Source: Candidatus Ishikawaella capsulata Mpkobe (GTDB lineage: Bacteria > Pseudomonadota > Gammaproteobacteria > Enterobacterales > Enterobacteriaceae). From it: DNA of 64,000 bases. The stretch lies in assembly GCF_000828515.1 (NCBI RefSeq), contig NZ_AP010872.1:159001-223000 (forward strand). The letters are read 5' to 3'. The notes under the pieces were generated by a model that had not been told where the DNA came from, made no database searches, and saw only the letters and a list, made by a program, of their open reading frames with translations. Both the position numbers and the translations under genes were made by a program. Numbering within the stretch: the first letter of the stretch is position 1; each line of letters starts with the position of its first letter. Shown here in pieces: positions 19,745 through 23,168 of this stretch.

Positions 19745-20430
19745 ATGCAAAAATGTAGATATAATATATCAATATTCAATCAATTACCTCACGATATTCC
19801 TCCATTTTTATATAGTAATCGTGGTATAGATGATTTTTCGCAACTCCAGTATAGCACTCAATATTTATTGCAATATTTTCAATTAAAAGGTATTGATAAG
19901 CTACTTAATTAGATGCATTTAAGGCTTTGGAAAAAGTAAACGGTATCAAGATATTATTAATATTAATTATATGATTTTATCATCCAGATTAGCAACATGG
20001 AATAGTATTCTTGCCTCAAGATTAAAGACCTATTTTTAACGTAGGGTAATAATTTTACTTCCTCAGGAACCTGGAACCTATCATCCTTTAAAAGGATAGG
20101 GTATTATATATATTAAATAAACATATACACGCAAATATTTTAGAAAATGTTGCATGGTCCTATGGTGAATTACCATAATCTTAATTATATATTAAATTAC
20201 AGAACAAAAATTTAATGGTAAATTAAAATTACAATAATAGTTAGTTAATGAATATTATTTCAACGTTCTAAAATTTTTTTAATATTTTGGTCTATTAATA
20301 GAAGGTATTATTGTTAATATAGATACCAATTATTGGCTAAAGAATAAAATTAATGATGTTAAATTAAATCAGTATATAAATATAAATTATGTATCAACCA
20401 ATTTTATAATAAAAATTAACTTCAATTAAT
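19745..20430 (+). pseudogene. recJ: recJ pseudogene (single-strand exonuclease), heavily decayed
   Basis: Fragments of RecJ are still readable in order. From the ATG at 19745 the frame gives LPHDIPPFLYSNRGIDDF and FQLKGIDKLLN before a TAG at 19910, matching the RecJ N terminus (LPxxLPPLLxRLYASRG). At 20293-20427 the frame gives IEGIIVNIDTNYWLKNKIND and then VKLNQYININ, matching the E. coli C-terminal segment DGIAFNVDTALWPDNGVREVQLAYKLDIN. Most of the roughly 1.7-kb gene between them is deleted or scrambled, with stops in every frame. The position directly upstream of prfB is where recJ lies in E. coli. xerD and dsbC, its usual neighbours, are absent. Confidence 0.85.
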
Positions 20431-20552
20431 TATAAAATATATTTTTCTGCTCAAATAAATACTAAATAATTTAAATGTAAATTATTTTAAAAATAAATTT
20501 ATAATAGCAATATTATTGCATATCATCTACATAATACTTAGGTACAATGGAA

Positions 20553-21650
20553 ATGTTTGAAATTAATTTAATAAAAAGTCATATAGAAAGTATTACAAAA
20601 CGTATTGATATCCTTAGGAGGTCACTTTAACTACCGTATTAAAAGTAGTAGATTGACAGAAATTAATACTGAATTAGAAAAACCCAGCATATGGAATAAT
20701 CCAGAATTAATGCAAAATTTAATTAAAGAGCGTACAGCATTAAATGTTAGTATTAATCCAATAAAACAAGTATCTACTAATTTAGAGGAGATAAATGATC
20801 TATTTCTCTTAGCTATAGAAATTAATGAAAAAAAAACTTTTACTGAAGTTATTGGCGAGTTAAATAATATAGATAAAAAAATAGCAAAAATTGAATTTTA
20901 TGCTATGTTTTGCGGGAAGGATGACAATAAAGATTGTTATATTGATTTACAATCTGGTTCAGGAGGGACAGATGCACAAGATTGGACTAATATTCTTTTG
21001 CGAATGTATCTTCGTTGGGCAATCATAAAGGGATTTAAGACAGAAGTTATTGAAAAATCTGAAGGTGAAATTGCTGGAATTAAAGCAGCTACAATTCATA
21101 TATCAGGTAATTATTCATTTGGATGGTTACGTACAGAAACTGGTGTACATCGTTTAGTACGTAAAAGTCCTTTTAATGCTGCTAAACGTCGTCATACTTC
21201 GTTTAGTTCAATCTTTGTCTATCCAGTTGTCGATGATGATACTGATATTATTATCAATCCTCTTGACCTGCGTATCGATGTATATCGTGCTTCAGGAGCA
21301 GGAGGTCAGCATGTAAATCGGACAGAATCAGCAGTGCGTATTACACATATTCCAACAGGTACTGTAACTCAATGTCAAAATGATCGTTCTCAGCATAGAA
21401 ATAAAAATCAAGCAATGAAACAAATGAAATCTAAGTTATATGAAATCCAAGCACAAAAAAAAAAATTGAAAAACAAAATTTAGAAAATAACAAATTAAAT
21501 ATTGCATGGGGTAATCAAATTCGTTCGTATGTTTTAGATGATTCTCGTATTAAAGATTTACGTACAGGCATAGAATCTCGGAATGCTCAAGCAGTGTTAG
21601 ATGGAAATATAGATGAATTTATTGAAGCTAGCTTAAAAGCAGGATTATAA
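20553..21650 (+). CDS. prfB: Peptide chain release factor 2; two frame changes needed
   Basis: RF2 ends translation at UGA and UAA. Residues 1-25 (MFEINLIKS... to RRSL) run from 20553 to a TAA at 20628-20630, where a +1 shift on CTT TAA C is expected; a perfect AGGAGG lies at 20616-20621. The second frame continues with the SPF anticodon-like motif ([11 protein letters not shown]) and the GGQ motif ([12 protein letters not shown]) to an 11-A run at 21455-21465. Here a -1 shift, or one extra A in the mRNA, is needed to enter the third segment: [30 protein letters not shown] and the end EASLKAGL. Without it a TAG follows at 21481, removing about 56 residues. With both shifts the protein has 365 residues, the E. 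coli length. An ATG two codons upstream (20547) is also possible. lysS follows after 9 bp. Confidence 0.88.
20616..20631 (+). promoter_or_regulatory. Programmed +1 frameshift site of prfB
   Basis: AGGAGG (20616-20621), three spacer bases, CTT (20625-20627), TAA (20628-20630) and C (20631) reproduce the layout of the E. coli RF2 site AGGGGG-UAU-CUU-UGA-C. The Shine-Dalgarno-like element is here a perfect anti-16S match. The stop is TAA instead of TGA. RF1 can also read UAA, so the normal feedback, in which scarce RF2 lets the ribosome shift, should be weaker. Confidence 0.9.
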
Positions 21651-21659
21651 AATAATAAT

Positions 21660-23168
21660 ATGGTTAAATATATATTTGACAAACAAGTATTAAATAATGA
21701 ATTGGAAAGTCGCCGTAAAAAACTTAATAGTTTACGTAACAAAGGTATAGCTTTTCCTAATGATTTTCGTCGTAATATCACTTCTGATAAATTACATATC
21801 GCATATTCAGAAACAGATCCAGCAGAATTAGAATCCATGGGCATTCAAGTAAGTGTTGCTGGACGTATAGTAATGAGGCGTGTTATGGGCAAAGCTTCAT
21901 TTCTTACTTTACAAGATATGGGAGGTCGTATTCAACTGTATATTTCGTGTGATTACTTACAAAAAGATAAATCTAATGAAGAATTTAAAAAATGGGATTT
22001 AGGTGATATTATTGGTGTATGTGGTAAACTATTTAAAACTAAAACAGGTGAGTTGTCAATACGTTGTACTACCTTAAAAATGTTAACTAAATCATTACGG
22101 CCTCTACCAAATAAATTTCATGGATTAATGGATAGGGAGATTTGCTATCGTCAAAGATATTTAGATCTTATATCTAATGACAAAACTCGTTATATATTTC
22201 ACTTGAGAGCAAAACTTATAGAGAAAATTCGTCATTTTATGGTAAGAAACGATTTTATAGAAGTCGAAACACCTATGATGCAACTTATTCCTGGTGGCGC
22301 CACATCTCGACCATTCGTTACACATCATAATGCCTTAAATCTTAAAATGTATATGCGTATTGCACCTGAACTTTATCTCAAAAGACTAGTAGTAGGAGGA
22401 TTAGAGCGTATTTTTGAAATTAATCGGAATTTTCGTAATGAAGGACTCTCTCCACGTCACAATCCTGAATTTACAATGATGGAACTATACATGGCTTATG
22501 CGGATTATGAAGATCTCATGAAAATGATAGAAAATTTATTATCCACATTAGCACAAGAATTGTTCGGTACTACTAAACTATCATATGGACAGTATACCTT
22601 TGATTTTATTAACAAATTCGATAAATTTACTATAAATGAAGCAATAATTAAACATAATCCAAACCTTAGGTTAGGTGATTTGGAAGATTTTGCTAAATCT
22701 TCTGCTATTGCTCGTTCACTTGGGATACAAATAGAATCACATTGGAAATTAGGTAATATTATTACTGAAATTTTTGAAAAAACAGTACAGGCTCACTTAA
22801 TTCAACCTACATTTATAACTGAATATCCAGTAGAAGTATCACCTTTAGCACGTCGTAATGATAAAAATCCAGAAATCACAGATCGTTTTGAGTTTTTTAT
22901 TGGTGGTAATGAAATTGCTAATGGTTTTTCCGAATTAAACGATATGGAAGATCAGGCACAACGTTTTTTAACAAAATATCAACAATCCGATGAACAAACC
23001 ACCCTATCATGTGATAAAGATTATTTAACCGCTTTAGAATATGGATTGCCACCTACGGCGGGATTAGGTATAGGTATTGATAGATTAGTGATGATTTTCA
23101 CCGACAGCAGTAATATTCGTGATGTAATTTTATTTCCGCTCCTCCGTCCAAATATCAACGATAATTGA
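21660..23168 (+). CDS. lysS: Lysyl-tRNA synthetase (class II)
   Basis: Charges tRNA-Lys. The 502 residues (E. coli 505) contain the N-terminal OB-fold anticodon-binding domain ([21 protein letters not shown]), then class II motif 1 (FIEVETPMM), motif 2 ([29 protein letters not shown]) and motif 3 ([12 protein letters not shown]). The ATG begins 9 bp after the prfB stop, the same arrangement as the prfB-lysS operon of E. coli, so expression probably depends on transcription through prfB. All active-site motifs are intact. Confidence 0.98.

Follow-up and report, generated by a model that had tools for sequence, protein, structure and literature searches.

The prfB gene of Candidatus Ishikawaella capsulata, which encodes release factor RF2, is broken in frame at a run of exactly 11 A at positions 21455–21465 of the window (the whole 64,000-nucleotide stretch of DNA analyzed; positions given without a contig refer to it, and the prfB, lysS and recJ features described below lie on its + strand). 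The A11 frame break is a true oddity of the sequence. Its most likely explanation is a real one-base contraction of the homopolymer in a gene that still works through RNA-polymerase slippage on A11, a reading to which we give a probability of about one half; it would add a striking and unusual gene to a type of rescue that is already known.

The prfB leader reading frame (20547–20630) starts at ATG 20547 or ATG 20553 and stops at TAA 20628–20630, within a programmed +1 site (20616–20631). The main RF2 frame (20629–21483), which carries the GGQ motif, matches E. coli RF2 from residue 26, passes through the A11 tract with the zero-frame codons CAA AAA AAA AAA TTG and is ended by TAG 21481–21483, 16 bases past the tract. 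The −1 frame (21465–21650) picks up RF2 sequence at ATT 21465 and runs for 61 residues, its C-terminal end reading SLKAGL, to TAA 21648–21650; the match of this C-terminal piece to RF2 has an E value of about 4e-26. When the two pieces are aligned with E. coli RF2 (PDB 1gqe), the first covers residues 26–306, its final two matched residues lying just beyond the break, and the second covers residues 306–365, with its first residue, I, falling on 305. The pieces abut with 0 residues missing, so that the lesion amounts to one base of frame, and the solved E. coli structure spans both of them. The family model TIGR00020 breaks in the same way, at 5–298 and then 290–353. An earlier note on this DNA had claimed the poly(A)11 with a TAG 16 bases on, the resumption of RF2 homology in the next frame up to 21650, and a protein of 365 residues with 12 A; all of this is borne out, the joined product being 365 residues when counted from ATG 20553 (ATG 20547 adds two). 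Besides A11, the programmed +1 site is the only interruption of prfB.

By the preferred reading, one base would have been lost from a mutation-prone tract of conserved codons (Q-K-K-N/K), and RNA polymerase would slip on the resulting A11 such that part of the transcripts gain one A. The extra A would restore the frame and, after the ribosomal +1 shift at the early stop, allow synthesis of a full-length RF2 of about 365 residues, while unslipped transcripts would give a product with the last 61 residues replaced by LKNKI. We infer three things here: that living cells do carry the shortened tract, that slippage is frequent enough to be useful, and that it is transcriptional. What is observed at prfB has the form of a slippage-rescued poly(A) break, namely a frame break that coincides exactly with an A/T tract of at least 9 bases and is the sole lesion besides the programmed +1 site, with conserved sequence on both sides. 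The earlier note had proposed rescue by slippage; the candidate mechanisms it named are the right ones, and slippage at prfB itself is a step that we, too, only infer.

The precedents come from other insect symbionts. Slippage at poly(A) tracts yields 12–50% corrected transcripts in an aphid and an ant symbiont (PMC5009743), and the homopolymer frame breaks of Blochmannia, which in Blochmannia vafer lie in dnaG, dnaX and pth (PMC3017870), are treated as slippage-rescued (PMC3017870; PMC4389277). Transcription insertions in Buchnera occur in homopolymers in 151 of 157 cases and are mostly of a single base (PMC5574713); this is the direction that prfB needs, and we therefore count it for slippage. 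Insertion is likewise reported to predominate at A11 in lacZ and at A10 in Buchnera (PMC6260861). Against slippage, PMC5574713 reports no transcription error that restored a frame, E. coli RNA polymerase prefers poly(T) over poly(A) (PMC6260861), and deletion predominated in an in vitro A11 case with E. coli polymerase (cited in PMC6260861). The Ishikawaella break resembles those of Buchnera and Blochmannia (PMC3017870; PMC4389277; PMC5009743) in lying in an AT-rich, reduced insect symbiont genome and in being a single-base break in a long A tract with the rest of the gene intact, and those breaks include genes essential in E. coli (dnaG, dnaX and pth). It differs from them in being known from the DNA sequence of one genome, in affecting RF2, a gene that already needs a programmed ribosomal shift, and in belonging to an extracellular gut symbiont of a stinkbug. 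Among the papers listed in the literature searches, which did not extend to the Ishikawaella genome paper, none was seen to describe a broken prfB frame in Ishikawaella, and PMC4389277 names prfB only for a contig overlapping prfB.

The alternative that survives best, a serious possibility though not a probable one, is that the reference sequence is wrong at this point, through assembly, sequencing or cloning, or has caught a minority allele, with most cells in frame and making RF2 normally. A single-base discrepancy in a long homopolymer is a classic error, and PMC6403173 warns of errors of this sort. The behavior of the other long runs in the genome argues against it. The 754,729 bp assembly (2 contigs, of which the chromosome has 745,590 bp) contains 21 A/T runs at least 10 bases long, including 3 runs of 11 and none longer; the search pattern matched 24 times, each 11-base run accounting for two of the matches. 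With the 64-kb window as training sequence, Markov models of orders 1, 2 and 3 (6 runs each) give an expectation of about 42–78 runs of 10 or more and 17–29 of 11 or more, and since the observed numbers fall below this, long A/T runs are depleted. With 3 runs of 11 against 17–29 expected, and with an RF2 match as strong as the one beyond the tract, the A11 break is not a matter of chance. Across the whole genome, runs of 10 or more are 2–4 times and runs of 11 or more 5–10 times rarer than the Markov expectation.

Only prfB, among the 21 runs of 10 or more, sits at a frame break. The other 20 runs are all enclosed by a stop-free frame at least 60 residues long. Family matches cross 18 of these 20 without a change of frame; in nuoB and in a gene for a D-Ala-D-Ala carboxypeptidase, the matched stretch shares the frame of the run and begins just after it. 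The remaining two A11 runs, in sufS and era, were considered as further frame breaks and rejected, as both genes have full family matches in one frame. The window has 9 other runs of at least 9 bases; 8 are enclosed by a frame of 60 residues or longer, and the ninth falls outside any such frame. That 20 other long runs, two of them A11, lie within one frame indicates that the assembly is generally right on tract lengths, and this speaks against an error at prfB. So does the frequency of breakage, since 1 broken run in 21 is of the order seen in Blochmannia, where 4–8 broken genes stand against 114–153 poly(A) tracts of at least 9 bases in coding sequence (PMC3017870; the thresholds differ). 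At the run in bamA (C1 around 244390) the family match begins from model position 74, which is residue 34, after a signal-peptide-like start; this looks like a shortened N-terminus from which much of the first POTRA region is gone, and not like a break at the run.

Comparison with other genomes also bears on the reference-error explanation. The comparison set consisted of 80 small-genome relatives, 59 larger-genome loci (from 58 genomes) and 40 further genomes; the small genomes were chosen by eye, not at random (those of 1.5 Mb or less among those listed, plus four of 1.6–2.0 Mb). The prfB C-terminus is in one frame at 110 of 110 other small-genome loci (80 + 30) and at 59 of 59 larger-genome loci. 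The 40 further genomes gave 31 matches above the cut-off, all reaching 352–353 in one frame, and 30 of these 31 loci were examined for intactness; the other 9 genomes have weaker, partial or no RF2-like matches. The distance from GGQ to the stop is 114–128 residues in the 80 small genomes, 116 in all 59 larger-genome loci and 60 in Ishikawaella. That 0 of 110 other small-genome loci are broken counts in favor of a reference error; because the break is unique in this sample, nothing shows its long-term maintenance, and this counts against rescue. The closest relative of Ishikawaella is Benitsuchiphilus according to PMC7218078. In the genomes searched, the genus is represented by this genome only; of two scans of genome contigs, one turned up no close relative and the other no in-frame version of the Ishikawaella tract.

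The site itself is a hot spot, because an A run of 10–15 covers both K codons, in frame, in 15 of the 80 small-genome relatives (17 of 80 by a looser count that accepts any A run in a 30-base stretch). The A11 tract encodes the conserved Q-K-K-N/K of RF2 (CAA AAA AAA AAN), and in AT-rich genomes CAA AAA AAA AAT is already an A10. The fourth residue in Ishikawaella would be K, followed by I, which extends the A run further.

It is unlikely that the frame is recovered, instead of or beside polymerase slippage, by ribosomal −1 frameshifting on A_AAA_AAA through tRNA-Lys slippage. The earlier note had suggested −1 shifting on the A run, and the slippery element is indeed present: the zero-frame CAA AAA AAA AAA contains an in-phase A_AAA_AAA, which is among the heptamers implicated in ribosomal shifting (PMC3711429). 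However, there is no Shine-Dalgarno-like motif near the tract, and a downstream RNA structure as stimulator is ruled out (z = 0.78; a longer piece including the tract has z = −0.66), whereas the dnaX signal has both stimulators (PMC3711429). An A run as slip site is common to dnaX and prfB, and dnaX-type recoding is transcriptional in Thermus-like genes (A runs up to 10) and ribosomal in E. coli, with A_AAA_AAG; prfB differs in that its A11 lacks both the SD-like motif and the hairpin and in that its truncated product has no evident use.

Several observations bear on whether prfB is still under selection. Over its C-terminal 60 residues the Ishikawaella protein shares 80% identity with the larger-genome consensus (59 loci), against 76% predicted by a regression on the first 280 columns over the 80 small genomes, and the residual for Ishikawaella is above that of 67 of the 80 small-genome relatives. 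None of the 12 invariant and none of the 19 nearly invariant columns is lost. The part beyond the break is at least as conserved as expected, and this absence of relaxation would also be expected under the reference-error explanation, where nothing is broken. Just upstream lies a relic of the neighboring gene, which from gene order we take to be recJ, with stops and changing frames (20202–20446; tblastn E 1.2e-8 for 20202–20417 and 0.002 for 20378–20446) and weaker pieces back to 19912 (E 0.025 or worse). Thus, unused sequence at this locus does decay.

RF2 is also needed. UGA stops are read by RF2 only and not by RF1, and lysS (21660–23168, which has a full family match and ends in TGA), rpsF, rpsR and murE all end in UGA, so RF2 is required for them. 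A second, weaker release-factor match, presumably prfA, lies at G000:C1:490445-491488 and is open over 383 residues. Translated with table 11, long reading frames stay open, and UGA is therefore not widely read as a residue. Taken with the conservation of the C-terminus and the in-frame position of the other long runs, the UGA stops in essential genes favor a prfB gene that is under selection.

A recent true loss, in which either RF2 function is collapsing in this strain or the organism is giving up UGA, with too little time so far for the gene to decay, is somewhat less probable still than ribosomal shifting. A recent break would leave equal conservation of the C-terminus, and UGA is a minor stop, ending 6 of the 50 reading frames of at least 80 residues in the window (lysS, rpsR and rpsF among them) and 1 of 18 genes from other loci (murE). 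Of the six TGA-ended window frames, five have a second in-frame TAA or TAG within 10 codons; however, about half would have such a backup by chance, on a rough base-composition estimate, and rpsR has none within 10 codons. The TGA ends of lysS, rpsF, rpsR and murE, the inability of RF1 to read UGA and the rarity, at most, of UGA as a residue codon all stand against a loss. A split RF2, with the C-terminal piece started separately and assembling with the truncated protein, is extremely improbable: both pieces are individually conserved, but they align without interruption and without a linker at the break, and a separate start is ruled out because no ATG, GTG or TTG lies in frame before 21594 (the first start-like codon being ATT 21465).

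Rescue by polymerase slippage at A11 would act on a gene that is already recoded. The programmed +1 site of prfB is normally built, with AGGAGG at 20616–20621, TCA, CTT at 20625–20627, TAA at 20628–20630 and C at 20631, a layout as in PMC12421855 (SD-like AGGRGG, 3-nt spacer, CTT, an RF2-readable stop and C), with TAA instead of TGA. Almost all bacteria have TGA at this position, and TAA occupies it in 1.4% of 8,164 motif-bearing genomes (PMC12421855). In our set TAA is found in 9 of the 22 motif-bearing small genomes (of 80) versus 0 of 42 motif-bearing larger-genome loci (of 59), as counted with a simple pattern, a miss of which does not prove the site absent; TAA at the prfB +1 site may thus be a tendency among AT-rich symbionts. 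RF2 could also be initiated, independently of the programmed shift, at a TTG at 20605 in the +1 frame (20605–21483), which would alter and shorten its N-terminus.

The likeness of Ishikawaella prfB to the programmed +1 frameshift of RF2 autoregulation lies in the full AGGAGG-TCA-CTT-stop-C layout at 20616–20631, and the A11 break is a second, separate event that has none of its elements. The earlier note had spoken of two recoding events that cancel; its frame arithmetic (+1 then −1) is right, but the two are different in kind, one a regulated prfB site and the other a homopolymer lesion. At the +1 site, less RF2 leads to more +1 shifting. We suggest, tentatively and as less likely than slippage rescue as such, that Ishikawaella RF2 is doubly recoded, each functional copy needing both a polymerase-inserted A and a ribosomal +1 shift, with the feedback buffering the lesion. 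If so, the gene would tolerate a slippage-dependent break unusually well, since a shortage of RF2 would raise +1 shifting. A toy model with an assumed basal shifting of 40% illustrates the size of the effect: with 30% corrected transcripts, RF2 would stand at about 45% of its normal level and not at 30%. The TAA at the +1 site means that RF1 can weaken the RF2 feedback, and in the same model, again at an assumed 40% basal shifting, about 37% of normal RF2 would be left if RF1 does half of the termination at TAA.

If the break is real, the cell relies for an essential translation factor on two frame changes that run in opposite directions and differ in mechanism; a feedback loop may explain the survival of a lesion in a gene that ends translation, and slippage rescue would be extended both to a release factor and to a symbiont living extracellularly in the gut. 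If it is an artefact, a wrong base is flagged in a reference genome used in comparative symbiont work.

Two further observations concern other genes and genomes. Ishikawaella polA (C1:736836-739575) is split into a 301-residue and a 621-residue frame that differ in frame, a split that may separate the 5′–3′ exonuclease from the polymerase part; the junction has no A/T run of 8 bases or longer, which rules out a poly(A) cause. This gene is listed as "Frameshift" in PMC6403173, which says of such cases that real and technical ones are indistinguishable. Finally, four genomes of about 300 kb from one genus (G117, G227, G300 and G361) have RF1-like matches with one in-frame TGA each, and G300 has a further RF2-like match with three in-frame TGA, the other three having no second match; these genomes point to possible UGA reassignment and RF2 loss among Enterobacteriaceae symbionts.
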